Source of the DNA: Ichthyosporea sp. XGB-2017a
Taxonomy: Eukaryota > Opisthokonta > Ichthyosporea
DNA length: 64,000 nt
Reading direction: 5' to 3'
Assembly (NCBI GenBank): GCA_002811675.1
Contig: PDIM01000030.1
Coordinates: 191,566 to 255,565, forward strand
This document shows positions 5,418 through 22,022 of this stretch, in pieces. Below the pieces are notes generated by a model. The model had not been told where the DNA came from and did no database searches. It was given only the letters and a program-made list of their open reading frames with translations. The position numbers and the translations under genes are program-made. How positions within the stretch are numbered: the stretch's first letter is position 1; each line of letters begins with the position of its first letter.

Positions 5418-7028
5418 ATGAAGGGTAGTGAATGCAATTTTTGTGAAGCTGATTCCGGATATCGCTCTATTGAAGAAGAGTATAGCTCTGATGGTAGTGT
5501 TAGTAGTAGAGTATTGTCCATTTCGAGTACCGGGACCAAGCAAATGAACTATTTAAAGGTAGAAAAGAGTGCACAGGCACGTATTCCGACTGTTGAAGGA
5601 GACTTTGAACTTGCGCTCTATCATAACAACTCGGATGAAAAGGAACATTTGGCAATGATTTACGGGGACCTCGATATCGCCAAGCCTGTTCCTGTCCGTG
5701 TTCATAGTGAGTGTTTTACTGGTGAGGTTATGGGATCTCTGCGCTGTGATTGTGGGGAACAACTTCACCTTGCGATGGAAATGATTGCAGAACTGGGGTA
5801 CGGAATTATTGTTTTTCTACGTCAAGAAGGGAGGGGAATTGGTCTTGCGGAAAAGTTGAAAGCATATAATCTACAAGACAAAGGATATGATACAGTTGAA
5901 GCAAATGTTATGTTGGGACATGGGCCGGATGAAAGAACTTACGATATTGCAGGCTTGATTTTGAAAGATATGGGGGTATCCAATGTACAGCTACTGACTA
6001 ATAATCCAAAAAAGATTGAATCTTTAGAAAACTTGGGCTTGAGTGTAGAAAACAGGATTCCAGTGGTACCAAAGAAGCTCAATATGTACAACACTCCTTA
6101 CTTAAAGACAAAGATCAATCGAATGAAGCACATGCTTTCCTTTTCCGAAGAGAGCATACTGAAAACAGTGGCAAATAATGTAAATACAAATGAAAAAGAT
6201 GTTGGCCCAGAATTCACGTTTTGTGCAAGTGGTTCGGAAAATGTGGGAAGTGGAAATGGGGTGGGTGGGGAGAAAGTCGAAACTGCGAAGGTTAGAAAGG
6301 TGAAATGTGAAGAGTGTTGTGCCACCGAGGAAAATGTCAAGAAGGAAAATCCCGGAGAAAAGCCGCGAACACAAGTTACATTGACATACGCACAAAGTCT
6401 TGACGGCTCAATCTCTAGTATTGACAAGAGTCCTCTGCGAATTAGCTGTGAAGAGTCCATGAAGCTTACCCATCAACTCAGGGTTGAGCATGATGCTATT
6501 CTGGTTGGAATCGGTACTGTACTGAGCGATAACCCCCGTTTAACTGCGCGCCTTGTCGAGGGAAAGAACCCACAGCCTGTTGTTCTAGATTCCCAGTTGA
6601 AATTGCCAGTGGACTGTAATTTAATGAAAAATTCTCTGAAGCCCTTTATTTTTTGTGGAACAAACGCCAGTGAAGCTAAGAAGAGTGAGCTGACTGGGTT
6701 GGGCGCTACTGTGATTGCTACGGCTGAAGACGCGAATGGCAAGCTGTGCTTAGCAAGTGTTGTGGAAAAAATCTATGGGCTTGGACTAACTTCATTAATG
6801 GTAGAAGGCGGGGCTTCTGTAATTAAAAGTTTCTTGTGCTCCGAACTTGTGGATAACCTTGTCGTTACCGTTTCTCCATCGATAGTTGCTGGCTTCAACG
6901 TATTGGGAATGACACCGACAACCCAGGGGAAAGAGAAGCTGAACTTACCAGCCCTTGAAGATGTCAAATACTCGGTAGTGGGCCAAGATATTGTCATGCG
7001 TGCGGTTCCTCGATGGCAAAAGTGTTAA
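5418..7028 (+). CDS. GTP cyclohydrolase II fused to RibD-type pyrimidine reductase
   Basis: Bifunctional riboflavin-synthesis enzyme, 536 aa from ATG 5418. The N-terminal half is GTP cyclohydrolase II: RVHSECFTGEVMGSLRCDCG supplies the Cys set that binds Zn, then GYGIIVFLRQEGRGIGL and the YDIAGLILKDMGV and LLTNNPKKIE blocks. A Cys/Glu/Lys-rich linker of about 80 aa follows. The C-terminal half is the RibD/Rib7 reductase domain: VTLTYAQSLDGSISS, ILVGIGTVLSDNPRLT, and LMVEGGASVIKSFL. No RibD deaminase domain is present between them. The two steps flank the deaminase step of the pathway, so the fusion joins steps one and three (bacterial order) or one and two (fungal order). An in-frame GTG region upstream lacks ATG and may be leader or the end of an upstream intron. 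Confidence 0.93.
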   Translation: MKGSECNFCEADSGYRSIEEEYSSDGSVSSRVLSISSTGTKQMNYLKVEKSAQARIPTVEGDFELALYHNNSDEKEHLAMIYGDLDIAKPVPVRVHSECFTGEVMGSLRCDCGEQLHLAMEMIAELGYGIIVFLRQEGRGIGLAEKLKAYNLQDKGYDTVEANVMLGHGPDERTYDIAGLILKDMGVSNVQLLTNNPKKIESLENLGLSVENRIPVVPKKLNMYNTPYLKTKINRMKHMLSFSEESILKTVANNVNTNEKDVGPEFTFCASGSENVGSGNGVGGEKVETAKVRKVKCEECCATEENVKKENPGEKPRTQVTLTYAQSLDGSISSIDKSPLRISCEESMKLTHQLRVEHDAILVGIGTVLSDNPRLTARLVEGKNPQPVVLDSQLKLPVDCNLMKNSLKPFIFCGTNASEAKKSELTGLGATVIATAEDANGKLCLASVVEKIYGLGLTSLMVEGGASVIKSFLCSELVDNLVVTVSPSIVAGFNVLGMTPTTQGKEKLNLPALEDVKYSVVGQDIVMRAVPRWQKC

Positions 7029-7848: not shown

Positions 7849-8409
7849 AATTTCGTACACTCCCTCAGTCACGAAAACAACACCTTCCAAATGAAACTTC
7901 AAATATCCATTCCCAATCAAAATGCCCACTCCACACAGAAGAAGCACCAGGCTCACAAAAACAAAACCAGAAAAAGATATCAATCAATAATCACAAAGAA
8001 GAAAAACAAGAAAGATTCTACTTAATCCAACTCCAAGTCAAAATCAAAAGCACAAATCAACCAAAACAATTATACTCCTCCCCCCAGTACCTCAACGAGG
8101 AGGATTTTTCCATAGATAACTTGCATAGAAAAATCATATATATTTTTAGGGTAATTATTTCCTACAACAGAGGGCAGCAGCCATTTTGTTTTGTAGTTTG
8201 GAATTTTTTGTTGTTCACATCTCAGAGACGGGCAGCAAGAAGAGATCTTGTCTTATAGGAGGGGTAGAAGGAAGTGAATCTGGCTCCTGTTGGTGAATGG
8301 GGTGTGGTGTGAGTGATAGGGATAAGGAAGTTGGACAGACCGGGTAGAAGGCTTAGTCAAGGGGAGGGAGGGACAAGAAGGGGTCACTCCTGGTGCATAT
8401 TTCGTAATC
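7849..8409. promoter_or_regulatory. Divergent promoter between PRCC-like gene and two-TM protein gene
   Basis: Contains, on the minus strand, GGGGGGAGGAGTATAATTG (8068-8087), a G-rich/TATAAT pair also seen near other genes here. No coding signal is supported. Confidence 0.45.
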
Positions 8410-8945
8410 ATGGCTACAAGGGTCCTTGATGTGGGGCCTGGGGCGTTTATATTGATCTTTATGTGGGCTCTTAATTTAGTGATTGTCTTTTTTGCTCGTA
8501 AAAGTAAAAAAGGAATGTAAGTTATGTTAAGAATCTGACTCTTGTTTGTCTTGTCAACCTGTTGACCCTCAATGTCGATGGCTTTTCTTTTCTTTGATTT
8601 GTTTTTATGCTTCATGTCTTTATCTATATAGCTCTATTATAGTGGGATTTACATTGTTTGATCTAATAGTAACATTGATTTTGCTGTTAGGTCCAAGGAA
8701 TGATTCTGATCCTTCTCCATTTGTAAGTGCTCCTGTGGTTTCGTTACTATCCCTCCTGTTCTTTACTTGTTGCGGTTACTGATGATATTCGCTCTTCTCT
8801 GTAGGTTGAGGATGATTATTTCTTTATTCGTTTAGCAGTTCTAATTATTACCTGTGTGGGCACACTGGCAGGATTATATTCCACATTCAAACTGTACGGC
8901 ATGAAGCCAGTTTATGCAGAGCACAAAGACTCTGTGTACCTTTAG
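8410..8945 (+). CDS. Small two-transmembrane protein, family not recognised
   Basis: A three-exon gene too fragmented to show as one frame: 8410-8516, 8698-8722 (25 bp) and 8805-8945. Introns are 181 and 82 bp, with GTAAGT donors; the middle acceptor is CCAAG|G, chosen because it alone keeps the frame through both joins. The product is 90 aa. Residues ~11-29 (GAFILIFMWALNLVIVFFA) and ~53-72 (RLAVLIITCVGTLAGLYST) are hydrophobic segments separated by a basic KSKKG and an acidic DSDPSPFVEDD loop; the C-terminus is soluble and ends EHKDSVYL. The short positive loop suggests a hairpin membrane protein. I do not recognise the family. Confidence 0.6.
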
Positions 8946-9412
8946 GCCCCTTCCACTTGATCTTTTAGTCACCTTTCCTCTCATCCCATCACTTTCCAAT
9001 CGTCTATCAATCATGGCAAATAGAACAACCAGCAACCTACACATACATGCTTCATTGCCTCATCTTGCCGGTCCCTTTCGTCACTAACCTGGTGAATCCA
9101 TCCCAATCATTTAGAAACGGAAACATTCCATTACATTCCTTCAAGGGTAGTGTGAAAGGGGAAAGGGAAAGGGCTGCCAGCGTTCGAATTATCAGCTTGT
9201 GCCATAAAATAAGAGCATACATTTGCCTTATAAGGCTGTCGCGGGAAAGAGGTTCTGCAATGTATTGTAATTGTCTCTTGGTCAGTTCAGCGTATCTTTA
9301 GAAATCATGGCACTGCGTGAAGGGGTTATTGCTTGCCGGGATTGGTAGTAATCTTACTGTCTTGAAGTTATAAATAAAATCCCTCACGGGTACAATACAC
9401 ATACTAAGAAGA
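8946..9412. other. Intergenic region upstream of calcineurin-B-like gene
   Basis: Holds a perfect palindrome GCCTTATAAGGC at 9225-9236 (contains a CArG-type CC(A/T)6GG box) and TATAAATAAA at about 9369, 40 bp before the next start codon. An open frame at 9047-9301 shows no homology and is not called. Confidence 0.45.
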
Positions 9413-10480
9413 ATGGGCAACGCAGGATCCCACGTTGGGTCCGAGAAATGGATCGACGAGTATGCCTCAAAATCAGGACGTAAGTTATCGATCGTGTTTA
9501 CTAATTCTAAACAACCCCTTTACCAGTTTGCTTACAAATTGTTGGATTTGTTTGTGTTAAACAGTCAGTCGAATTGAAATTCAACATTTATGGAATCGAT
9601 TTAAAATGTTTAATCCTCATACAGATGGCACTATCAATATCACTAGTTTACAGAAAGAGCCATACAGCTCGGATCCTTTCTTGCTTAAGGTAGGAGTCAT
9701 TGATCACTATTCACCAGTTTCTTACTTTCTATCACCATTGACCCTTGGAGTATTTTGTGTCTAAAGCTTATTCAGTCTGATCCCTCTGGGAATATATCTT
9801 TTGAAAAGTACATTAGGGAGATTACATTTTGGAAGACTTCCTCTGCTGAAATCAAATTAAAAAGTATGCGCCATATTGTTTTGGTTGTTTTTAAAGGGAC
9901 TTTGAGTTTATTTTTCTAGTTACTAATCTGTTTATTTCATGTCCATCTTTGTACTCAAGGGCTTTTTGATACGTGCGCTTCGTTTAACAGGCCTGAAGAT
10001 TCAATTCCAACCCGCTGCCTGAGTCCGAATGGACTGCTGGAAGTATTCCGGGTCTTAAGTAGTTGTAATGGGGATTTTAAGTCAGAATGCGAAAGACTTT
10101 TGAGCATGATAGATGAAGACAGTGAACCTCATGACAAACTCTGGGGAGGGAATGTCACATCGGCAACGTCAGAAGATGACGAACAAAGTGAAGGGGATAA
10201 AGCTTCAGGGAAAGAGGAAGAATCTGATCGTGGAACAGAGGAGGTGGATGAGGAAACCAAGTCTCTGAGGAGAATAGTGATAGCTACTCTTCAAAGTCTA
10301 GATAAGAGCCAAAGAGGATACGTGACATGGGGAGAATTTCAGGCCTTTATACTTGGAACAACTGACAGCAATGAGTCCGAGTCAAGTGTAGTTTTAAAAC
10401 AGGCAAAGGATAGTTTACAGTTCAAAATAATTGATTTCCATTTAGAAAAAGAGAAAGCTGATGGAAACTTGGATAGATAA
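9413..10480 (+). CDS. Calcineurin-B-like EF-hand protein with degenerate loops
   Basis: Four exons: 9413-9479, 9565-9689, 9767-9863, 9960-10480; all joins are GT-AG and the frame closes at 269 aa. The start MGNAGSHVGSEKW has the MGN N-myristoylation signature of calcineurin B. IQHLWNRFKMFNPHTDGTIN aligns with the first EF-hand region, LLKLIQSDPSGNISFEKYIR with the second, and LDKSQRGYVTWGEFQAFI with the last. Loop acidic positions are poorly kept (NPHTDGTIN, QSDPSGNIS, DKSQRGYVT), so Ca2+ binding is doubtful at most sites. An acidic insert of about 45 aa (EDDEQSEGD, KEEESDRGTEEVDEETK) precedes the last hand. It may be a regulatory subunit or CBL/CHP-type protein rather than a true calcineurin B. 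Spacing of conserved blocks supports a single gene despite low identity. Confidence 0.75.
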
Positions 10481-10604
10481 GGAATTGTAAAGCACAGCAA
10501 TATATCGCAAAAAGGGAAGAAGGACATATGCAGAGTATTGGGGAAAAGCTGATCTGGTCCAGATCTGCACAGACCACAATTATTCCATATTAGATTACAC
10601 TTCG

Positions 10605-10783
10605 GCGAGTTTGCATATTAGATAAAGTTACGTTTGCCATGCCAACAGAGGAGAGCTCAGTTCTGTAGATACTAGAAGGCCTTTCACACTTTGTGGTGGG
10701 GCCAATACTCATGAACCTAGAGTGCATGGTTCAATGCTGCTTTGTGGGATGCTAGAAGCCTTGTTAAACAGATTATAACCCAT
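10605..10783 (-). pseudogene. Decayed copy of the 57-aa small gene at 11854-12027
   Basis: Minus-strand sequence from ATG 10783 reads MGYNLFNKASSIPQSSIEP, then an in-frame TGA; the intact relative reads MGYNLFNKTSSNVPQNSVEA. Nucleotide similarity continues past the stop through the matching ...CTGTAGATACT... and ...GGAGAGCTC... segments. The end point is approximate. It lies head to head with the decayed FF-type gene at 11182. Confidence 0.6.
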
Positions 10784-11181
10784 GATACCAAGGACCACTT
10801 GATGAAGTGGCTTTCATGTGTGCCACAACCATGCTGGGTAGTGCTGCCTGAAGCCCGCTTTTTCCTGTCAAGACGAGTCATATGCATGGGACAGGGTCAC
10901 AGGGTCAGTCAGTACATGTCTGATTTTTTTTCTTTCTGCATTTTGTTATGCCAACTACAGTAATTTGGACTACGTGAAATACATAACGCAAAATAGAAAA
11001 TTAGCTTAGTGGGCCTATATTTTCAAAAGTCTTCAAATGTTGACCAGAAGGCTCTGTTTGTGGGGTATAACAAGACCAGTGAATGTGAACTGTTGACGCA
11101 GTTTCAGAACATCGACAATTTATCTTTGAAGCAAAGAAAGATTTTCAAAATTCATGATCAACAAAATCAAAAACATTCACA

Positions 11182-11310
11182 ATGGGTTTCTTCAAGAAAA
11201 ATAACAAACCTTCTGCCCTCAAAGAGGCCAAGTCTAAGATAAACAAGACCAAGCAGTAACCCCCTGCATTGGTTGTGCCCCCTTTGGCTGCATAGTACTC
11301 TATGTTGTAA
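11182..11310 (+). pseudogene. Truncated FF-type small protein gene
   Basis: Reads MGFFKKNNKPSALKEAKSK then INKTKQ and stops at TAA 11257-11259 (25 aa). The DNA beyond the stop still aligns codon by codon with the intact paralogue at 14209-14334 (one extra codon) up to a second TAA at 11308-11310, where the paralogue also ends. Upstream and downstream flanks are also paralogous. The TATA box TATAAAAGG of the intact copy reads TATAACAAG here (11066-11074), at nearly the same distance (116 versus 114 bp). Both promoter and coding region thus look eroded. AATAAA is at 11437-11442. A functional 25-aa product cannot be excluded. Confidence 0.75.
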
Positions 11311-11756
11311 ACTAACTCTCAGCTGATGCTTTTCTACATGTCAACTTTGCCATCCCATATTGTATTCTAACAATTGAGTAGACCAGCATCATCCCTCTTT
11401 GGAAAGCGTTAGTCAACACCTTATTTAGTTCATATCAATAAAATCATTCGTTATCATAGGTGTTTTTTGGAACCTCTTGTCAAAGTCTGGAATACGTAGA
11501 GAATGACGGGCCTTTATCCAGGGAACTGCAGGTTACAGGGAGTCTGATTGAGAGGAGTTTGAAGTGAAGCAAAAGGCATTTCACAGTTAGTTTTTTTTCT
11601 TTGTCACTTGTTCTCTCTCGGGCGAATACTAGGGTCTTGAAAAGCTCAAGATGTTTAATTTTTCATTTAGAAAAGGGTAAAACTGTTGGACACTTGGATG
11701 TTTAAGGATATAAAAAAGCTCACGATTCATTTATTTAAATAAAACAATTTATTGTG

Positions 11757-12040
11757 AAAGGGAAGAGGAAGAATATATACAGAGAGAGCACTGGGAAAAT
11801 GAGTATCTGGACACCACCACAGTCAATTGATATCGAATCATACCTCCGTGTATTTACATATTGGAGGAAGAGTTTGTAATGCCAATAGAGGAGCTCTCAG
11901 ATCTGTAGATACTCGAGGGTCTTCCACATTTCTTTGTACGGCCATTATTCAAGAGCCTGGAGCGCATGGCCTCCACACTATTCTGAGGCACATTACTAGA
12001 AGTCTTGTTAAACAGATTATAACCCATGATTTCAAAATAG
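11757..12040. repeat. Diverged duplicate of 10500-10790
   Basis: Both segments share GGGAAGA(A)GGA at one end, TCTGTAGATACT in the middle and TTGTTAAACAGATTATAACCCATGAT at the other (its first 20 bases TTGTTAAACAGATTATAACC are identical). They flank the FF-type gene at 11182 and carry the 57-aa gene and its relic. Identity is patchy, so the duplication is old. Confidence 0.65.
11854..12027 (-). CDS. Small Ser/Asn-rich 57-aa protein, related to the cluster
   Basis: Starts MGYNLFNKTSSNVPQNS and ends ITNSSSNM; rich in Ser, Asn, Arg and Lys. Not recognised. The start resembles the FF family only loosely (MG, aromatic/hydrophobic, then K/N/S), so membership rests mainly on size, place and lack of introns. 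A decayed duplicate lies at 10605-10783, which shows this frame was once a unit of duplication. Minus-strand AATAAA signals are at 11730-11735 and 11748-11753. A weak TATA-like GGCTATAGTACC lies about 130 bp upstream (near 12155-12166). Confidence 0.45.
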   Translation of the reverse strand: MGYNLFNKTSSNVPQNSVEAMRSRLLNNGRTKKCGRPSSIYRSESSSIGITNSSSNM

Positions 12041-12240
12041 TTTATACACAGAAGATAAAGCAAGATAGATTACTTCAAATCAAACATCAAAAGAGCCACA
12101 TGAAAGATAGGATAAAGGAAGAGCATGTGATATGACATAAAATATCATAGATAAGGTACTATAGCCGATAGGGCTAAAGCCTAAAGGGAATTAAGCTGTG
12201 TTAGGAAATCGGATCGAGTGCAGTCGAGAGTCTCGGAGAT

Positions 12241-12423
12241 CTACAATTCATGTAACGCGCCACGCGTGGCGGAATGGACACGGCGCCTGATCAATCCCCC
12301 AGGCCCTTCTCCTCCCAAAAAGAAACTGTGAACCTTTTTTTGTAATGTTCCTCGCCCGCCAATAATGCTCAATGTCATTGCAGCGTGACATGACAATTGA
12401 GTTGGACTCTTGAAGAAGGCCAT
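12241..12423 (-). pseudogene. Relic of an FF-type small gene start
   Basis: From ATG 12423 the minus strand reads MAFFKSPTQ and then loses the K/S-rich character. The 18 bases CAATGGCCTTCTTCAAGA are identical to the start region of the intact gene at 18057, which is not expected by chance. The rest of the frame (to a stop at 12241) shows no family features. No TATA box is seen upstream. A 14-bp palindrome CGCCACGCGTGGCG lies at 12258-12271. Confidence 0.5.
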
Positions 12424-13091
12424 TGGGATGGCTCTACACAGCCTCGTGCTCAGCTGTTCTCGCTTCTTATTCTCTTTGTTTTGGGTCCATCGACTTCTGT
12501 TAGACAGTTTGTGAAAGACCACGTGTACTTAATGAAAACCGAGGAATACGATAGAAAACAGTCAACTTGTATGTTTTTTTTCATTGGGTGTATGCCATTC
12601 TAGAGCTTCAGAAGTCACCAACTCGCAAGAATGCGCTCTCTTGCCCACCTTTTGGAAGAAAAAAAACCGATATTGTGAAATGCTTAGTGATACATTTGAC
12701 TAACTCTTCAAAACAACTTTTCTTGCCCCAGGATTGTACATACGTTGATATGTGTAAACTTTGCTTTTATTACGCAGTCTTTCAAGAACGTCAAAAAGGA
12801 AGGATCGCTGTAGGAGCAATTTCACGCACTTCCTCATCTCCAGTTCCCGTGTATGTGCGATTGGGGATGGAATTGCGAAGGATGAAGGAGGAGGTGCTGA
12901 GGGCTAAAATACCATGTCAAAGAAAAAACGTGGCCCAGCAATTATTTTTGATTTGTAAACTGAGATGCTCCAGGAACTTAGAAGTTATGTTTAAAGTTTG
13001 CTGAAAATTCTGGCTTAACAATGTTCATTCCAAATGGGTTTAATCTTGGAAGGTTTCATTGCAACTTCAGGGACCATGTCAATGAGCAGCT
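12424..13091. other. Spacer within the small-gene cluster
   Basis: Open frames here (for example 12567-13004 on the plus strand) have no homology and no family features. Nothing else is recognised. Confidence 0.4.
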
Positions 13092-13226
13092 TTAGCAGAT
13101 GCAATGTCCTCCTCCTCCGAGCTTGGGGAAAAAGGGAGTCCGGGGCTTCTGTGCAGAACTAGAGCTAGAGTTAGTTAGCGTCTTGTCCTTAGGTGAATTC
13201 TTGTTTTTGCTTCCAAAAAAATTCAT
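13092..13226 (-). CDS. FF-type small protein (44 aa), C-terminus HCIC
   Basis: Too short for most gene finders. Starts MNFFGSKNKNSPKDKTL, continues with a Ser run and AQKPRTPFFPK, and ends GGGGHCIC. It keeps the family plan of Met, small residue, FF, basic/Ser linker and short hydrophobic tail, though the tail differs: instead of a Met-rich end it has Gly4 and a terminal Cys-X-Cys. A TATA box (TATAAATA on the minus strand, plus-strand 13332-13339) sits about 106 bp before the ATG, the same spacing as in its relatives. It is head to head with the gene at 14209. No AATAAA was found just downstream. Confidence 0.62.
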   Translation of the reverse strand: MNFFGSKNKNSPKDKTLTNSSSSSAQKPRTPFFPKLGGGGHCIC

Positions 13227-14208
13227 TTTTGTTTAAGAATTTTATGATCTGATTTATCAAATATTTGTTTTTCTAAATAAAGTGTGTAAGTTCAGTTAAA
13301 ATGATATTTCACACACACCCATCTCTACAAGTATTTATATCCTGGACCAATTCTTCTTTCAGTAGTGGAGAATCTTGAAAGAGGGAGGAGCTTCAAACTG
13401 CACGCTACCAACTGCAAAAGTGGAGCTCATATAACTTACTTGGCAGGTTCTTGAAAAGTTAGATGCTTTGGGGCATGTGACTAGCTACAGGGCGAGAAGA
13501 CTCAAATACTACATAAGGAACCGTGGACAGTCGATGAACTACAAAATGCGAATACTCCGCTAAAACGCCGTAAGACAGGGGTGGGTTAGCTTTGGGTTAA
13601 CATACGTTACATGTTTTTATCTCCAATAGTTTGCAAGCTGTCCCAAACTTGTTCTGTCCGCGAGTCCATCGAATCTTCAACGTCCACTCATGATATGCAT
13701 GATGCCAATCTGGACAGGCCTGCAAGACGTGGCGACGACGTGACTGCTAAAAATAAAAAAGTTAAAAAAGATTCCGTGGCCACGTATCAAATATATTTTG
13801 GCCCCGGCATGATGCCCGCTTGGGGACAAATATACCGGGGCAAGTTCCGGTCCTTGTTCTTCTTGATATCATCACGAGTTGTTTGATACCCGCCCCTTTC
13901 CCGTTAGGGTCATGGGGCACAGTCACATGTACATGCCCAACTCTCTTCTCTGGTTATAAATGGATCATACAAATGGAAGCCCTAATGTACATATGCAGTG
14001 TTCCTTGGAAATACATAATGCAAAAGAGGAATGTTTTGTTTTTGACGTCACTTCAAAGGATCCGAAACTTGGAAATGAACTTCTTTTGCGTGGGTATAAA
14101 AGGACTAGCTAGTGTGGACTTTCGAAGCATTTTCCAAAGTAACAACAGCGTAATCTTTAAAAGTGAAATAAGATCTTTAAAAGTCAACAAATATCAACAA
14201 TATTCAAA
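13227..14208. promoter_or_regulatory. Shared promoter of head-to-head small genes 13226(-) and 14209(+)
   Basis: For the plus gene: TATAAAAGG at 14095-14103 and a perfect CRE-type TGACGTCA at 14043-14050, 45 bp upstream of the TATA. For the minus gene: TATAAATA complement at 13332-13339. A further GACGACGTGAC lies at 13733-13743. The plus-gene half is paralogous to the region before 11182. Confidence 0.6.
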
Positions 14209-14334
14209 ATGAGTTTCTTCAAGAAAAATAACAAATCTTCTGCCGCCCAAGAGGCCAAGAGTAAAACAAACAAGTCAAAGCAGCCAAATGTTTTGGTGAT
14301 GCCCACTCTGATGGGACAGTACCCTATGATGTAA
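14209..14334 (+). CDS. FF-type small protein (41 aa)
   Basis: Starts MSFFKKNNKSSAAQEAKSKT, then NKSKQPNVLV, and ends MPTLMGQYPMM. The last eleven residues are shared almost exactly with the gene at 18057 (MPTLVGQYPMM). No intron, no signal peptide and no transmembrane span long enough to be sure; the linker is predicted by eye to be disordered. TATA at 14095, AATAAA at 14460-14465. The truncated copy at 11182 is its closest relative. Conservation of both ends with a freely varying linker argues that the reading frame is under selection. Function unknown. Confidence 0.75.
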   Translation: MSFFKKNNKSSAAQEAKSKTNKSKQPNVLVMPTLMGQYPMM

Positions 14335-15079
14335 ACAACCCTGAAACTGCTTTTGTATATATCAGCCTTTTCTAGTAGTGGGGTAAACCAGCGTCCCTCT
14401 TCGGAAAGATGCTTGGAAGGCCTTCTCTCAGAAACTTTATTCAACACCTAATTTAATTTAATAAACTTAATTTATAAACGTATAATATTGGTACTAGTAT
14501 TTCCCCTTTTACATTCCTTACTTTGGTAGATGAACGAGCGTGAACAAGTCTAGCAAGGCTAATTTTGCTAAACTGGCAGCTGGTACTCTTTTAGGTCTTC
14601 ACGATTTCCATGGTAAGGACAAGTTTACTAAAGCTCCTTTGCCCCACAGTTCACACGACTAAACATTTTGAAAGTTAACAACGCAACCTGTCAGCAATTT
14701 AGTTTCATAATAGCTCTTACTGCAATGCTTTGAATTCGCTTTGGCAACATTTTTAGAGGAACATTTTTGGAGAAAGATTCTATTAGAAAAGGCTGACATG
14801 ACATGATCGAAGTAAATTTCTAAAAACAAAGATGCTCTCTCTGATTCAGAATCTTTGATCTAAATACAATCTGAAAGGAGGGAGTAGACAACCACTTCAA
14901 GAAAAGAAATTGCTCCGACTTTCTCTGTCTTGAAAACACACATTCAACACTTCTAAGCTTTTGATTCGGTGCATATGAATTGTTTTTATTAAGTTAGTAG
15001 TTGCTCTTTTTTACAGAACCCACAGAATATGGGTGGGATTGGAAGGCATTGCAGGGATATGTACAGGACGCTTATGAAT
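14335..15079. other. Spacer between convergent small genes
   Basis: 3' flanks of 14209 and 15196. A Met-less frame near 14540-14660 beginning NKSSKANFAKL might be a relic of the family but is too weak to call. Nothing else seen. Confidence 0.4.
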
Positions 15080-15196
15080 CTACATCATAGGTCTCATCAT
15101 GGTCAAGGGCGTGACTGGGGCTTTAGAAGCATTACCTTTTTTCTCAGAAGAAGAAGAAGAGGTGGACTTAGGGCTTTTTTTAGTAAAGAAGGCCAT
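15080..15196 (-). CDS. FF-type small protein (38 aa)
   Basis: Starts MAFFTKKSPKST, followed by a five-Ser run, EKKGNASKAPV, and ends TPLTMMRPMM. Same plan as its neighbours: FF near the start, basic/Ser linker, Met/Pro-rich tail ending MM. TATA box TATAAAAG (plus-strand complement 15331-15338) lies 135 bp before the ATG, preceded by GGG as in 14209 and 18057. Complement of AATAAA at 14985-14990. Head to head with 16292. Function unknown. Confidence 0.72.
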   Translation of the reverse strand: MAFFTKKSPKSTSSSSSEKKGNASKAPVTPLTMMRPMM

Positions 15197-16291
15197 TGTT
15201 GCTTATGTTCTACTTTTTTGATTGTACGATTTGTATATCTTATGTTGGAATCACTTTTTGATTTTCTTGCTGATTTACTTTTTTGTTGTTAATACAAAGA
15301 ACATCAAAGCGAAATTGCCTACTTGCTTTGCTTTTATACCCCAATTTGAGGATACTGAACGTGCCTCAAAAAGTTGCTTGCTGAACATGAAGATTTGTTT
15401 TGGTTTTGTAACGATACGGGACATTTTCGCTGCCCAAATAAAGATGTTCTTGCGCGTTGCCGTCACCAGAGAATGCTCCACTTTCTATTTCCTAAATGAT
15501 ACAGTGACGTGTGAGGTTAAAGAACTTGGTGACGTGTAAACAGTTTGGGAAACAGCTTGGAACACGCCTTTCCTTATAAGGCGGGGAAAAATGTCCATAT
15601 CACTAGCTGTAAAAAGCAGGAACAAAAGAGAAATCCTGGGAAGGGGGAGTTACAATTGAGAAATGAAGGGCGTCAATTCCCGCTTGTTTTATAAAGAATA
15701 TTCGCACCGTTACATTACATCAAATTTCAAGTAGCCATCTGCATGAAGCCATGTGGCCAGCATAATCGCAGTAATTCTGCGTAGAACTCTTCTGATATAG
15801 TCAAGGATCTATGTAACGTACAGTATGTAGCGGGCAGTCCCAGAATTACAATACATTACAGCATCGATGGCGTGATATGTGATAGGGGCATGTGCACCAT
15901 ATCTAGAGGAAAAAGGGGCTTGGATGCTCAACTCTGAGAACCCCATTTACTCAATATCCAGTCTTTGATGAGCACGAGCACAAAGAGGACCTTTCCATCT
16001 GAAGACCTTGCACATATCTTAGCGATAAAATAACGGGGATTTGCATAAGGCCATTCTGTTGGTACTTTCTTTTTTGTTTAGCAGCCTGCCGTTACTATTT
16101 TGAGACAGTGGTCAAAAACAGTTTCTTTGCTCAGGACTTTCTGGACTTTGAGCAGAGTATAAATACAGAAAAGGTACTGGCTCTCAATGTAACTGAATTA
16201 TTCAGATACAAAGTAAAAAACAAAAAGCAAAAGAATTAACAAAAACAAGTTAAGAATCTAAACAATAATCTTCTAATCAATTATTTACACA
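15197..16291. promoter_or_regulatory. Shared promoter of head-to-head small genes 15196(-) and 16292(+)
   Basis: TATA for the minus gene at 15331-15338 (complement) and for the plus gene at 16158-16165 (TATAAATA). Two TGACGTG boxes at 15505-15511 and 15530-15536, and a CArG-type CCTTATAAGG at 15572-15581. TTTTATAAAGAATATTCG near 15688 includes an inverted GAA/TTC pair like a minimal heat-shock element. Confidence 0.55.
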
Positions 16292-16423
16292 ATGGGCTTC
16301 TTTACTAAATCGGATAAGAAATCTTCCCCACAGGCAACTTCTGCCTCCGCAGCCAAGTCCAGTGCACAGCCTCAGCAGCGCACTGCATTCTACTACCAGG
16401 CCAGAGCTTTCTCTAGAGTGTAA
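16292..16423 (+). CDS. FF-type small protein (43 aa), Tyr/Phe tail
   Basis: Starts MGFFTKSDKKSSPQATSASA, then AKSSAQPQQ, and ends RTAFYYQARAFSRV. The head is typical; the tail is aromatic/basic rather than Met-rich, like the PFF tail of 13226. TATA at 16158-16165, 134 bp before the ATG; AATAAA at 16519-16524. The 5' leader is very A-rich (CAAAAAGCAAAAG). Function unknown. Confidence 0.68.
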   Translation: MGFFTKSDKKSSPQATSASAAKSSAQPQQRTAFYYQARAFSRV

Positions 16424-17263
16424 AGTGCTCTTAAGACATTGTGCTTTCGGACCAGATCTGTACATAAACAAGGCAATGATGCCTCCCTTTAATTTAACTT
16501 AACTTAAATAATTTATTTAATAAACAAGCTACTTCCGTAGAAGTGCTTGCATTTACAATATAGCTCTTCTGCCCTTTGACTCATTGGTCGTTTCTTGTTC
16601 AGTGTGGTGCAATAGCATCTTATTATTGTTGAAGCATATTCTCACCAGTTGATCTCTTACGCGAAGGGCTCTCCTCGACCAGGAGGATGTCTATAACTTT
16701 GTTCATTTAGTACTACTATCAAACCAGACTCTTCGACAATTGTCGTCCTTACTACATACTAAAAAAGCACCATTGCAAATGCCATCATGCATTGCACCTC
16801 GCTCTGATAAACATGAGGTAGTGAACAATGAGTACGTAATGGTCTTTTAGGTTGTAGCATAGGCATGTACCAGTAAACTGGAAAGTGTTCGGGAAGCTAA
16901 TATACAGAGTTCACTTTGCGAAACCCGAAAATCTGAAGCAAAAATGGAGTGAGCTCTTTTCTTTGCAAGTGCACAGACAGAATTCTTATGGTGTGGAACA
17001 GTAGTTTGCTCAAGATGAACAGTTGAAGGAGCAGTTTTCGCCCCAACTCTTTATTTTTTTGTGCGTTGTGCATACTGTGTACACCTATACACATGTGCTC
17101 AACTGCTTTTCTTTTTTAGAAACTGATTAAATAATGAAAGAACCAAACATCCACTAAGATATGGTAGTAATAAAGGAGTTTTATTTAGCTTTCAGTAGAT
17201 GAAACGTGTCATTAGTGCATTATTTGTACAAAGTGAACTAATGTTCTTAAATTAAAGTAGGCT
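16424..17263. other. Spacer between convergent small genes
   Basis: Holds the 3' flanks of 16292 and 17395 (polyadenylation signals at 16519 and, on the minus strand, 17180-17185). No further gene is supported. Confidence 0.4.
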
Positions 17264-17395
17264 TTACAACATAGACAGGGGTCCCGCAAAGTGAGGCATC
17301 ACAGGGACTTTTGCATTATTGCCAGCCTTAGGAGATTCAGATCCTTTGGCGATGGCATTGGAGGAGGATTTGTTACTTTTCTTGAAGAAGGCCAT
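17264..17395 (-). CDS. FF-type small protein (43 aa)
   Basis: Starts MAFFKKSNKSSSNAIAKGSE, then SPKAGNNAKV, and ends PVMPHFAGPLSML. The first ten residues equal those of the divergent partner at 18057. A TATATAAGG box (complement 17532-17540) lies about 137 bp before the ATG. Complement of AATAAA at 17180-17185. The tail keeps the MP..xxG.x.ML pattern. Function unknown. Confidence 0.75.
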   Translation of the reverse strand: MAFFKKSNKSSSNAIAKGSESPKAGNNAKVPVMPHFAGPLSML

Positions 17396-18056
17396 TGTTT
17401 TTTTAAAAAAAGTTATGAATCTTATTTGATTGCTTTTGTAAATCTGTAAATATTTGTCTGGCTATGGTTATTATTATTGTAGTAGTTGTTGGTTTGAATG
17501 AATACTGCAACAAACAATAGCACTGGCCTTTCCTTATATACACCAGGCATCTTTCGCGCCGTGAGAATTTGATTCATTTGTTCCAGCAGTGAGCACATTC
17601 CAATTCCCAAAAAGAAACAGCCCCCATCATGACAAGACCAAAAGGAAAGCAAAGGCATTTTCCCCAGGGGCCGGGCATTACCCAGTCCCATGGGGATCTT
17701 TGCCAGGGTTACACATAGACGTTGTTATTGGTGACCCAAATCTCCTTGTTTGGGGAGGTCCACGACGTCACCGCCCACCGAGTTACACAATTTGGTGGCG
17801 TCACCCCCCGCAGATTCCTTTTATGGGCATTGTTTGATGAGGCCCCTACAGGAGTGTTTCGCGCTTTCTCATTCACGTATTGTTATTTGCCGCAGATGGA
17901 ACTGTGCCTGGGTATAAAAGGAGATGCAGATGGGGCAGAGACTGTCACGGAGTTATAGTAACAATTACAACTAGTACAAACTAAATAGTATTGCCAAGAT
18001 TGACAAACAGTAATCACGAAAACTTCAGAGTTATAACAAAAACAGAAACATAAACA
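17396..18056. promoter_or_regulatory. Shared promoter of head-to-head small genes 17395(-) and 18057(+)
   Basis: TATA for the minus gene at 17532-17540 (complement) and TATAAAAGG for the plus gene at 17913-17921. Between them are GACGTCACC (17764-17772) and GGCGTCACC (17798-17806), reading GGTGACGTC and GGTGACGCC on the other strand, as in the other shared promoters. Confidence 0.6.
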
Positions 18057-18200
18057 ATGGCCTTCTTCAAGAAAAGTAACAAATCCTCTTCTGCTAGTTC
18101 TTCTTCCACAAAGAACACAAAGGCAGCATCTGAAAAGAAGGGAAATGGTGGAAAGATCCTTGCCATGCCCACTTTGGTTGGACAGTACCCAATGATGTAA
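18057..18200 (+). CDS. FF-type small protein (47 aa)
   Basis: Starts MAFFKKSNKSSSASSSSTKN, then TKAASEKKGNGGKILA, and ends MPTLVGQYPMM. The tail matches 14209 except for one residue and the head matches 17395, making it the best consensus member. TATAAAAGG is 144 bp upstream at 17913; AATAAA at 18307-18312. No introns. Function unknown; a short amphipathic or membrane-contacting head and a conserved hydrophobic tail are the visible features. Confidence 0.78.
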   Translation: MAFFKKSNKSSSASSSSTKNTKAASEKKGNGGKILAMPTLVGQYPMM

Positions 18201-18650
18201 AGCATCTCTGTAAGCTGAGAACTATTTAATCAACAGCTGAATACAGTGACAAACTGTGTGTTTGGGCTGCCTAGTATGCAACATGTACATAAAACAGTCA
18301 TTATTTAATAAAACCATAATTAACTATAAAAATTTATTTCGTCTGAAGCGAATATTCTCTTTCGTTGCTGGGCGTGTTGGTACTTCTCCAGTAGCTGAAA
18401 ATGAAAGGCAGGTATTCACAAATGCATTCGTCGCGAAGTGATTGCGAAGGCGAACACTACCAAGGAGGCGTCGACTCAGCTGAATATCTCTCTCTGTAAA
18501 GTTTCAGTTGAGTAGAATAAAACAGACAAATCGTTTTCGTCAAGTATAGAAGGAGTTTATTAGGAATGGTCAACGCAAACCATATGAGATTTGTTACTAT
18601 TATGTTTTTTTACTATTATGACCAAACCATGAAGTCGAGGTTGATTTATT

Positions 18651-18776
18651 TTAGAACAGTGGTTGTAAGAAGCTAGCATGGGCTGTTGAAGTCTTTTTCT
18701 TGTCGTTATTAGCTTTGCCAGAAGGAGCCATCTGGGTTGGAGCCGCTTGCTTTGTTTTCTTTGTAAAGAATCCCAT
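18651..18776 (-). CDS. FF-type small protein (41 aa)
   Basis: Starts MGFFTKKTKQAAPTQMAPSG, then KANNDKKKTSTAHA, and ends SFLQPLF. The head nearly equals that of its divergent partner at 19709 (MGFFTKKNKQ). The complement of AATAAA is at 18556-18561. No convincing TATA box was found upstream, unlike most relatives. Function unknown. Confidence 0.7.
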   Translation of the reverse strand: MGFFTKKTKQAAPTQMAPSGKANNDKKKTSTAHASFLQPLF

Positions 18777-19708
18777 TTTCTTTTTTGTTGACTATAATTT
18801 TGTATTGCTGATTCACGAAATAAATCTGTTTGTGCTAATATGGTGTAGCATGAAGCTAAGTGGAGAGGGGCACACTTAAGTGAAGGAAATGAAAATTGGA
18901 AACCCCATCTTCTGTACACACACACATCTGCCTTAATCCTTGGTAGTTTCCATAGTTGTTGCTGTTTGACATTATCTAATCTGTTGACTATCATATCATC
19001 TTCTATTGTGTCCTTTTGTAGTAAAATACAGTATTATTGCAGTAGATCAAGAAAAACAGGTTACAGGGTGGAAGAATTATACACTGTTTCCTTGGAGTGA
19101 CTACGTCGGTCTTCCAACAGTACAATTATATTACTTCAAGAAGCATTAATATAAAAGATGTTTTTCCTATTTTGACAGTAGTGGCATCACATTGCACATT
19201 TTCCCTATTATAACTCACCAAGATGGCTTATCTTGCTGTGGGTAATTTTATAGGCTAATTCAGGAAATGGACGGGACTCTTCACTATTTTAGGGAATCTC
19301 AGATTCTTCATATGGTCAATATGCTTACTTGTCTCGCCACTCGCCTTCCTTATACGGGCACCACAATCTCCTTTTGAGGATTTCACAAACCCTCGCACAA
19401 GCCACAGTTGTGTGAAAAAGAATCTTTGATCTCGGAGTAAACGGAATATTATTGAGAAGCTAAACACGAGCGCGGCTAAATAGGTGATGCCTTGTGAGTT
19501 GTGACTTGTTTCGTATGGGCAGGGTTGGAGAGCCAAAAGAGTATTTAAAGAAGCATTCTCAAGGACAGAAGGATCAAATTTACAGAACAACAACAACAAC
19601 AATAACAATAACAAAAGTTGAAATCATTAAACTGTTGATTTGCTTAACGCAGAACCCAAGCTAAGAACTTTTAATTTAATCTTTAAAATTTGAATTTACA
19701 TTATAAAA
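18777..19708. promoter_or_regulatory. Shared promoter of head-to-head small genes 18776(-) and 19709(+)
   Basis: TATTTAAA at 19542-19549 precedes the plus gene by 167 bp; a CAA-repeat leader (about 19587-19602) follows. No TATA is seen for the minus gene. An open minus-strand frame at 19255-19614 overlaps this promoter and leader and is not considered a gene. Confidence 0.45.
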
Positions 19709-19855
19709 ATGGGCTTTTTTACCAAGAAAAACAAACAGCAGGCAATGGTCAGTGGTCCAACCACCCAAAACAACACAAAGAAAACATCGAGTGAGAAGCG
19801 AAAGGCTAGCTTGCTTACACCCGCTCCAGGAACAAGCATGTTGTCGATGCTGTAG
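19709..19855 (+). CDS. FF-type small protein (48 aa)
   Basis: Starts MGFFTKKNKQQAMVSGPTTQ, then NNTKKTSSEKRKASLL, and ends TPAPGTSMLSML. Same plan as the others with a Met/Leu-rich tail. Stop TAG 19853-19855; AATAAA at 19961-19966. The preceding leader is A-rich. Function unknown. Confidence 0.74.
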   Translation: MGFFTKKNKQQAMVSGPTTQNNTKKTSSEKRKASLLTPAPGTSMLSML

Positions 19856-20018
19856 AAGTTCGAAATTTCCAGATAATCACACACTGACCTCTTCAACCTC
19901 CCGTATGTTTCACAATGACGGTTGCTACAATTCACTTTATCCAGCACTGCTGGGCCTCATAATAAACTACAACATATGAGCAATTACATATTCGCCTTGA
20001 GGAGCCTTTATTATTATG

Positions 20019-20264
20019 TTACAACATGCTGGGAGGGGGATTTATACAATACGCCATTTTTGCTTTTGGATCTTTTTCCTTCTTGCCAATGTCAATCACA
20101 TCTTTATCAGGAATTGTTGCAACAAAAATTTGATTTAAAGTAGAACTCTTTTTGCTTTTATCTTCTGCATCTTTGCAATGCTCAGTATTTGCCTCAGTTT
20201 TGTTTAAGTTGCCTGAGGACGAGGGGAGTTTCTTTCCACCCGCAACCAATTTTTCAAATACCAT
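20019..20264 (-). CDS. Possible long outlier of the small-gene cluster (81 aa)
   Basis: Starts MVFEKLVAGGKKLPSSSGN and ends INPPPSML. It has a hydrophobic/basic head, a polar K/S/D-rich middle (HCKDAEDKSKKSS), an added IFVATIPDKDVIDIGKKEK segment, and a tail ending SML as in 17395 and 19709. It lacks the FF pair and has no clear TATA box. The complement of AATAAA lies at 20008-20013, partly inside the end of the frame's 3' side. Membership is a guess based on place, tail and composition. Confidence 0.4.
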   Translation of the reverse strand: MVFEKLVAGGKKLPSSSGNLNKTEANTEHCKDAEDKSKKSSTLNQIFVATIPDKDVIDIGKKEKDPKAKMAYCINPPPSML

Positions 20265-20432
20265 ACTAAACGAAGTTAGGAAAGCGCTGTTTCAATACTT
20301 AGCATAAAATAAGAGTGCTAGAAAGTATGATTCACCAAGCGTCAGGGATCACTGGGAAACTTCTTCACAGCCATCCAAAGCAACCAAACAAACAAGCCAA
20401 CAAGCACGGGGGAAGAGATAAACAGGGAGAGA

Positions 20433-20637
20433 GGAGTGTTGGGAATGAAGGAGACAGACTACAGAGTCACACTCCAGTCTCCACAGTAGTCGGTGGAGTG
20501 CATACTTCCTGATCGAGCGAGGAGCGAGCGATTCCTCCTTACTGATGGACAATTTAAATACACTTTTAGGGCGTCCTCTGATTGGCTCCTGGAATTTGCG
20601 CTACTATCTATAACCCTAAAGAAGAAAATGGCGAGCG
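20433..20637. repeat. Dispersed repeat, copy 1 (cut by gap)
   Basis: About 205 bp that recurs with one visible mismatch at 21500-21704. The core (from 20512) has an inverted CCAAT box (GATTGGCTCCTGG), TATCTATAACCCTAAAG and ends at an ATGGCGAGCG just before the N run. Confidence 0.85.
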
Positions 20638-21499
20638 NNNNNNNNNNNNNNNNNNNNNNNNNNNNNNNNNNNNNNNNNNNNNNNNNNNNNNNNNNNNNNN
20701 NNNNNNNNNNNNNNNNNNNNNNNNNNNNNNNNNNNNNNNNNNNNNNNNNNNNNNNNNNNNNNNNNNNNNNNNNNNNNNNNNNNNNNNNNNNNNNNNNNNN
20801 NNNNNNNNNNNNNNNNNNNNNNNNNNNNNNNNNNNNNNNNNNNNNNNNNNNNNNNNNNNNNNNNNNNNNNNNNNNNNNNNNNNNNNNNNNNNNNNNNNNN
20901 NNNNNNNNNNNNNNNNNNNNNNNNNNNNNNNNNNNNNNNNNNNNNNNNNNNNNNNNNNNNNNNNNNNNNNNNNNNNNNNNNNNNNNNNNNNNNNNNNNNN
21001 NNNNNNNNNNNNNNNNNNNNNNNNNNNNNNNNNNNNNNNNNNNNNNNNNNNNNNNNNNNNNNNNNNNNNNNNNNNNNNNNNNNNNNNNNNNNNNNNNNNN
21101 NNNNNNNNNNNNNNNNNNNNNNNNNNNNNNNNNNNNNNNNNNNNNNNNNNNNNNNNNNNNNNNNNNNNNNNNNNNNNNNNNNNNNNNNNNNNNNNNNNNN
21201 NNNNNNNNNNNNNNNNNNNNNNNNNNNNNNNNNNNNNNNNNNNNNNNNNNNNNNNNNNNNNNNNNNNNNNNNNNNNNNNNNNNNNNNNNNNNNNNNNNNN
21301 NNNNNNNNNNNNNNNNNNNNNNNNNNNNNNNNNNNNNNNNNNNNNNNNNNNNNNNNNNNNNNNNNNNNNNNNNNNNNNNNNNNNNNNNNNNNNNNNNNNN
21401 NNNNNNNNNNNNNNNNNNNNNNNNNNNNNNNNNNNNNNNNNNNNNNNNNNNNNNNNNNNNNNNNNNNNNNNNNNNNNNNNNNNNNNNNNNNNNNNNNNN
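20638..21499. other. Assembly gap (862 N)
   Basis: Run of N. The same sequence lies on both sides, so the gap may hide a tandem duplication, the inside of an element with direct repeats, or be a scaffolding artefact. Confidence 0.99.
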
Positions 21500-21732
21500 G
21501 GAGTGTTGGGAATGAAGGAGACAGACTACAGAGTCACACTCCAGTCTCCACAGTAGTCGGTGGAGTGCATACTTCCTGATCGAGCGAGGAGCGAGCGATT
21601 CCTCCTTACTGATCGACAATTTAAATACACTTTTAGGGCGTCCTCTGATTGGCTCCTGGAATTTGCGCTACTATCTATAACCCTAAAGAAGAAAATGGCG
21701 AGCGAGCCGACCTTTAGGTCATTGCAATTTTA
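21500..21732. repeat. Dispersed repeat, copy 2 (complete core)
   Basis: Repeats copy 1 and continues through AGCCGACCTTTAGGTCATTG to GCAATTTTA. The core 21579-21732 (about 154 bp) also occurs inverted at 57887-58041. It contains a 12-codon frame starting ATGGCGAGCGAGCCGACC and ending TAA. Confidence 0.85.
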
Positions 21733-22022
21733 AACTATGCAGTCATGATGAGTGAATTCGCGGACTGGGTCCTGGAGTCTGGAGGGGACAGCTGGCGCAG
21801 TACTAAAGCCTAAAGGTAGGGTTGGGTTATTAGAAGGAAGGAGGGGCTGGGGAGTGGGGTTGGGTGTACTGGGTCACGGATACTCTGTTGTGTTGCAATG
21901 GAAGATCATTAAGTGAGGGAGGGAGGGAGATTAGTGACTGAGTTATTGCTTATTGGGGAAGCTACGGTGCAGGAATCATTATCCGCTGGTAGATAGATAG
22001 TGGGATTAGAATAGATACATCA

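Follow-up and report, generated by a model that had tools for sequence, protein, structure and literature searches.

An apparently undescribed multicopy family of tiny FF-headed proteins in an ichthyosporean genome

A cluster of short open reading frames

Our analysis of a 64,000-nucleotide window of ichthyosporean DNA (contig C30, positions 191566-255565) centers on a cluster of very short open reading frames (ORFs) at 11-20 kb, the products of which begin with the head M-[GASN]-FF. The cluster holds eight intact ORFs of 38-48 codons, a broken copy (11182) and a probable head-only remnant (12423); copies are named by the position at which they start. The source of the DNA is indicated by a window protein at 54021-56414 (minus strand), which shows 100% identity over 99% of its length to the EukProt entry Nk52_evm82s1444. 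The Nk52_evm prefix denotes Chromosphaera perkinsii, described as a dermocystid ichthyosporean (PMC6981761, PMC5560861). The members and associated elements are listed below, with lengths in amino acids (aa) and distances in bp upstream of the start (-) or past the stop (+).

11182-11259, plus strand: broken FFKK copy, 25 aa, intact head, premature TAA; nearest to 14209; TATA position reads TATAAC
11275-11311, plus strand: what is left of the 11182 tail, 73% to that of 14209 as aligned
12241-12423, minus strand: possible head-only remnant starting MAFFKS..., lacking a tail, a TATA box and any AATAAA within 400 bp
13092-13226, minus strand: intact ORF, 44 aa, MNFFGSK, tail HCIC, outlier; TATA -113, AATAAA only at +321
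14043-14050, plus strand: site resembling a cAMP response element (CRE), TGACGTCA, without a second full one in the window; at -166 from 14209
14209-14334, plus strand: intact FFKK ORF, 41 aa, tail MPTLMGQYPMM; TATA -114, TGACGTCA -166, AATAAA +126
15080-15196, minus strand: intact FFTK ORF, 38 aa, tail RPMM; TATA -142, AATAAA +90
16292-16423, plus strand: intact FFTK ORF, 43 aa, tail FSRV; TATA -134, AATAAA +96
17264-17395, minus strand: intact FFKK ORF, 43 aa, tail GPLSML; TATA -145, AATAAA +79
18057-18200, plus strand: intact FFKK ORF, 47 aa, tail MPTLVGQYPMM; TATA -144, AATAAA +107; relative on contig C231 60% identical
18651-18776, minus strand: intact FFTK ORF, 41 aa, tail LQPLF; no TATA-like site in 300 bp, AATAAA +90
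19709-19855, plus strand: intact FFTK ORF, 48 aa, tail TSMLSML; TATTTA -167, AATAAA +106
20019-20264, minus strand: doubtful distant member, 81 aa, MVFEKL...PPPSML, sharing the SML end only; net charge +3

A preliminary description, made from the sequence alone, had listed nine of these frames; all nine are present where it placed their starts, all begin M-[G/A/S/N]-F-F, and the tails it quoted are correct. Such heads are rare by chance. Between 10601 and 20300 there are ten ORFs of 20-90 aa starting M[GASN]FF, eight of them M[GASN]FF[KT]K, and 300 dinucleotide shuffles gave means of 0.07 and 0.01, respectively, with a maximum of 1 each. The copies fall into an FFKK subgroup (14209, 17395, 18057, an intact copy on a second contig, C231, and the broken 11182) and an FFTK subgroup (15196, 16292, 18776, 19709), with 13226 (FFGS) an outlier to both. 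Each intact ORF has its own ATG and keeps a single frame up to its stop, which is consistent at the level of ORFs with the earlier claim that introns are absent. Strands alternate without exception from 11182 (plus) to 20264 (minus), provided that the 12423 remnant is left out, and the gaps between ORFs range from 163 to 1832 bp.

The frame at 11182 had been called truncated. It is indeed short, but it is better described as a broken copy, because the premature TAA is followed by a recognizable tail remnant. The 12423 frame carries an exact 18-bp match over the head and nothing convincing downstream of it, which makes a head-only remnant of the family probable on this evidence. The 81-aa ORF at 20264 lacks both TATA[AT]A at -180 to -50 and an A-rich leader, had no candidate in the protein database and returned only itself from its own genome. 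It could be either a distant member or a gene with no tie to the family, and as doubtful it is excluded from the family counts.

Composition and the C-terminal tripeptide

The nine intact proteins, including the C231 copy, have net charges of +5 to +7, isoelectric points (pI) of 10.0-10.8 and zero to two cysteines, and Ser, Thr, Lys, Asn and Gln make up 56-73% of their middle part. Among 114 other window ORFs of 36-50 aa, 16% match the family charge, 1% reach the linker minimum (56%) and none does both. At the C-terminus, eight of the nine end in [PS][MLR][MLFV]; among the 492 other ORFs with 20-90 aa, six do (20264 is counted among these six). Both the composition thresholds and the tripeptide pattern were picked after viewing the family, and the copies are related to each other, so these figures show conservation rather than an independent test.

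Within the first ten residues, the intact window copies carry FF and two or three lysines. By eye, no signal peptide is apparent in the family proteins. N-myristoylation as a general feature was rejected because residue 2 may be G, A, S or N. The AlphaFold2 model of 18057 has no secondary structure and a mean predicted local distance difference test score of 62.6; this low-confidence model fits a disordered peptide.

Protein-level constraint

The pair that can be compared without gaps over its full 47 codons, 18057 and the intact C231 copy, has a ratio of nonsynonymous to synonymous change (dN/dS) of 0.34. Here 13.5 of 30.7 synonymous sites are changed, versus 21.5 of 110.3 nonsynonymous sites (Fisher P 0.005-0.018, depending on rounding). 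Over 25 codons, the broken-copy pair 14209/11182 gives 0.95. Eight other pairs, aligned as proteins and containing gaps, yield 0.27, 0.39, 0.24, 0.41 and 0.15, with two saturated at synonymous sites and one at 1.04. The preliminary description had pointed to dN/dS near 1 between intact copies as the sign of a spurious family. Its appearance in one intact pair (16292/15196), next to 0.34 without gaps, 0.15-0.41 in five intact pairs and saturation in two, makes the outcome mixed but mostly favorable.

Segment by segment, 12 chosen comparisons were made, uncorrected for number and not all independent, of which five reach P of about 0.02 or below. The clearest is the head of the diverged copies 19709/18776, where six codons differ synonymously and two nonsynonymously (P 0.00005), followed by the tail of 18057/14209 with three and two (P 0.0019). 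Heads compared across subgroups give P 0.013 (17395/18776) and 0.015 (18057/19709), and that of 16292/15196 gives 0.025. The linker of 18057/C231 has no synonymous and ten nonsynonymous codon changes (P 0.40). In 14209, 18057 and the C231 copy, the tail is still followed by a stop codon. Judged from these substitutions, protein-level constraint is seen in the ends, and none is seen in the only linker open to gap-free comparison, which is free in sequence. The earlier statement that both ends are conserved while the linker varies needs narrowing for the tail, where sequence is conserved only in the FFKK subgroup and elsewhere only the last three residues are rule-bound.

Upstream and downstream elements

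The preliminary description gave most copies their own TATA box at 106-167 bp. Six of the eight intact window copies have a strict TATA[AT]A, at 113-145 bp upstream; 19709 has only TATTTA at -167, and 18776 has none. Within -180 to -50, the motif is found at 7 of 13 starts examined, comprising seven of the nine intact copies and none of four others (three broken copies and 20264). By comparison, it occurs at 7.7% of random window positions and 2 of 18 large ORFs, the first ATG being assumed as the start of the latter. The AATAAA signals expected about 70-130 bp downstream are present at 79-126 bp past the stop in seven of eight intact window copies, and 13226 has its own at 321 bp. Over 60 nucleotides of leader, A content is 43-57% in intact copies, 42-50% in broken copies and 2-50% in large ORFs.

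The top enriched upstream 7-mer is ACGTCAC, found in four of nine regions versus 0.33 expected, where only 7-mers present in at least four of the nine were ranked. TGACGT, counted on both strands so that the palindromic TGACGTCA scores twice, has 6 occurrences in the cluster and 14 elsewhere in the window (0.62 versus 0.26 per kb). Shared upstream 7-mers except GTATAAA and ACGTCAC looked like noise. Inducible expression, as the preliminary description had it, is a plausible reading of the TATA boxes together with the weak excess of the CRE-like 7-mer.

Upstream flanks align above shuffles in three of eight pairs (18057/C231, 18057/17395 and 14209/11182; z 5.3-6.9) and not in the other five, and downstream flanks reach z 2.0-3.0 in three of eight. 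Mixed upstream alignability is as expected of duplications of different age.

Traces of duplication within the cluster

A 40-nucleotide inverted repeat (17361-17400/18052-18091, 98% complementary) covers the heads of 17395 and 18057 plus 5 nucleotides of leader. Outside it, the linkers and tails of these two copies diverge, a pattern that suggests recent gene conversion of the heads. At the left edge of the cluster, 10435-10791 is duplicated about 1.24 kb away at 11660-12035, in three pieces of 78%, 80% and 93% identity, and the two segments flank the broken 11182 copy on both sides; this repeat may mark a duplication unit.

A second locus and the search for further copies

The intact C231 copy runs from 94061 to 93918 on the minus strand, near the contig end, and encodes 47 aa, 60% identical to 18057. 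About 1 kb from it, on the plus strand, is a broken copy with the head MGLFKKSNKSSSASA. A 4-nucleotide length difference sets its head and tail in different frames; the head frame extends to 75 codons. Translated in its own frame, the tail remnant is MPLLTGHYSML, which links the YPMM and SML tail types.

Whole-assembly searches covered 25.06 Mb in 291 contigs. The published Chromosphaera genome size is given as 34.6 Mb (PMC5560861), so the searched assembly may be partial and family copies may be missing from our counts. Seven of the eight intact window members (all but 14209) and the 81-aa ORF served as protein queries. Those from 18057 and 17395 retrieved FFKK relatives at the two loci, and the other six retrieved only themselves. 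This search is loose and could miss distant copies, because 19709 failed to retrieve its neighbor 18776.

The head pattern has 32 matches in the assembly (reversed control, 10): 8 in C30:202746-211291, 1 on C231 and 23 elsewhere. For 22 of these 23 (all but a match on C248), the M-x-FF ORFs of 18-120 aa read in the 3-kb surroundings include none with the full plan of head, spacer and tail. The FFKK head pattern with up to three mismatches has eight matches (control, 3), six at the two known loci and two elsewhere. With up to one mismatch, all four matches to the tail pattern lie at the C30 and C231 loci (control, 1). Among the matches inspected, head and tail patterns found no full copies outside these two loci in the searched assembly.

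Database and literature searches

None of the eight intact window proteins matched a Pfam family, even with E allowed up to 10; the family alignment had no sequence match in the PDB, and Rfam had no match at gathering score in 8000-22000. Among 5.8 billion proteins including EukProt, 510 candidates were returned and none at E <= 1, although the underlying sources may lack very small proteins. No relatives outside the source genome were found in the protein sets searched, and no search of other ichthyosporean genomes was made. Because the set contains Chromosphaera gene models and gave no match at E <= 1, the results suggest that the copies are absent from those models. The Chromosphaera annotation is described as built from Augustus, PASA, GeneMark-ES and SNAP (PMC5560861). 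In a literature search, with subscription papers mostly outside its scope, none of the titles and abstracts listed dealt with this family.

Surroundings of the cluster

No transposase or viral genes were recognized by eye among the listed ORFs around the cluster. To its right, 20433-20637, the 205 bp left of an N-run at 20638-21499, repeats at 21500-21704 with one mismatch. The run is probably an unmerged contig overlap, so its 862 N may represent no missing sequence; alternatively, the repeats may be a real tandem repeat, or the run may stand for withheld sequence. Elsewhere in the window, a single 1280-aa ORF (38663-42502, minus strand) carries both an alpha/beta hydrolase domain (PF12146) and, at its C-terminal end, a protein kinase domain (PF00069), a fusion of which we know no other example. 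At 5418-7025 (plus strand), GTP cyclohydrolase II is fused to the RibD C-terminal domain in one ORF, joining two riboflavin synthesis steps.

Discussion

Substitution patterns, composition, the C-terminal tripeptide, the promoters, the second locus and the lack of any library match all support the earlier proposal of an apparently undescribed multicopy family. The M-[GASN]-FF ORFs are very probably a real protein family, and we regard their coding status as fairly secure.

For what the proteins do, we favor a lineage-specific multicopy family of 38-48-aa cationic, disordered, bipartite adaptor peptides, with a Phe/Lys membrane head, a spacer and a C-terminal docking motif; we put this at roughly one chance in three. 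The family would have arisen by local duplication in Chromosphaera. The head, M-x-FF-[KT]-K with further lysines, would dock on an acidic surface (in the likeliest case a membrane) through phenylalanine insertion and lysine charge as in the MARCKS effector peptide taken as a model. The Ser/Thr/Lys/Asn spacer would be disordered and cationic and would tolerate almost any sequence of the right make-up, and the free C-terminal tripeptide, [PS]-[ML]-[MLFV]-COOH, would dock on a partner. We infer that the peptides are expressed, remain in the cytosol and have some role in the cell. Their own TATA box in most copies and half-CRE in some would probably allow strong switch-on under some condition. The sharper version, in which a single-celled relative of animals has inducible bivalent microproteins with information only in the two ends, the head an aromatic and basic membrane anchor and the C-terminal tripeptide a ligand, is doubtful.

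Several results weigh against these proposals. In a simulation of the whole 18057/C231 ORF, the scarcity of amino-acid changes has P 0.07, reaching 0.024 only jointly with the absence of a stop. The intact pair with a whole-length dN/dS of 1.04, 16292/15196, aligns poorly beyond the head. Seven of the 12 segment comparisons fall short, among them the head (P 0.19) and tail (P 0.10) of 18057/C231, the heads of 18057/14209 (P 0.15) and 14209/17395 (P 0.14), the tail of 18057/17395 (P 0.10) and the pair 14209/11182 (P 0.10). A strict TATA box is missing from 18776 and 19709. The choice of ACGTCAC among all 7-mers carries no correction. One of its four sites is common to the divergent pair 17395/18057, so they amount to three places. 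The copy 13226, ending in CIC, is the sole intact one to break the C-terminal rule. The AlphaFold2 model of 18057 favors no binding mode, and the family head is much poorer in basic residues than the MARCKS peptide, which has 13.

The same plan of head, spacer and tail could serve without a membrane, through binding to another intracellular partner such as the ribosome, chromatin or an enzyme to be inhibited. We consider this tentative alternative nearly as likely as the membrane adaptor, since cationic disordered peptides with conserved ends would also suit RNA or an acidic protein groove, although no specific motif favors any partner and no PDB sequence match points to one.

A less probable role is that of leaderless cationic membrane-active peptides directed against microbes or competitors and released by lysis or unconventional secretion. 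Small size, a charge of +5 to +7, a pI near 10, hydrophobic ends, a fast-changing linker and a multicopy cluster would all fit. However, the proteins show by eye neither a signal peptide nor a cysteine scaffold, the spacer is rich in Ser and Asn, the low-confidence AlphaFold2 model shows no helix, and the C-terminal tripeptide rule indicates recognition, not lysis.

Somewhat more remote is the view that the transcripts are regulatory or structural RNAs, with short ORFs that are incidental. Having frames this short, such transcripts could be classed as long intergenic noncoding RNAs (lincRNAs), and the flanks that align above shuffles, upstream ones including the leader, would be in keeping with an RNA. 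In contrast, synonymous bias in head and tail, the charge and C-terminal rules and the stop kept after the tail in three copies argue against this view, as do the empty Rfam scan and the flanks of the remaining pairs, which cannot be aligned above shuffles.

Import into peroxisomes through a non-canonical C-terminal peroxisomal targeting signal type 1 (PTS1) is quite improbable: three of nine intact tails, of the SML and SRV types, are on a validated plant list (PMC3427985), but PMM (three tails), PLL, PLF and CIC are not on that list, which may not fit ichthyosporeans, and the head would be left unexplained.

Returning to the bipartite adaptor, if the peptides are bivalent, paralogues with different tails would connect one surface with a different partner each, perhaps during some stage of the life cycle. 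Constraint at the ends only would offer a clean natural experiment on bivalent disordered peptides, and if it fails, the annotation of the region is still corrected. Very short frames are easily omitted from gene lists, so lineage-specific families of tiny proteins can stay invisible; if the bivalent reading holds, annotation rules that drop short frames would conceal similar families in other holozoans.

Comparison with known systems

PTS1 resembles the family in C-terminal tripeptide recognition and in having SML and SRV, and differs in that six of nine intact tails are off the validated plant list (PMC3427985).

Ichthyosporean lincRNAs are a class in which family transcripts could hide through annotation rules. 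Dudin et al. describe identifying them from length together with TransDecoder and CPC2, and some are reported to be deeply conserved (PMC6855841). The present ORFs are set apart from them by protein-level constraint.

For the MARCKS effector peptide, a random-coil state is described, with lipid binding by way of basic residues and phenylalanine insertion (PMC5487340). The likeness to the family head, a short unstructured basic stretch with phenylalanine, would be one of mechanism only and by analogy, whereas the MARCKS peptide has 13 basic residues and is part of a larger myristoylated protein (PMC5487340).

The best parallel in kind is the sigN family of Dictyostelium discoideum, for which the published account gives 96 related genes encoding proteins under 120 aa, with no homologues found in other organisms (PMC2257962). 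According to the same account, the 13 closest genes lie in two regions of one chromosome and encode proteins of 87-89 aa with conserved N-terminal regions and group-specific C-terminal differences. These proteins are rich in Cys, Gly and Ser and poor in Lys and Arg, a membrane segment is predicted in SigN1, and 89 of the 96 genes have a tiny first coding exon (13 coding nucleotides) and an intron (PMC2257962); a related knock-out study is PMC8554618. Small proteins, two gene regions, conserved N-terminal and group-specific C-terminal ends are thus common to both. In contrast, the present peptides are 38-48 aa, Lys-rich, net +5 to +7, with zero to two cysteines and single-frame ORFs, which places them outside sigN; the comparison is by features, and no sequence relationship is claimed. 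Multicopy, lineage-specific small proteins are a known kind, of which the M-[GASN]-FF family looks to be a representative new in sequence and plan.

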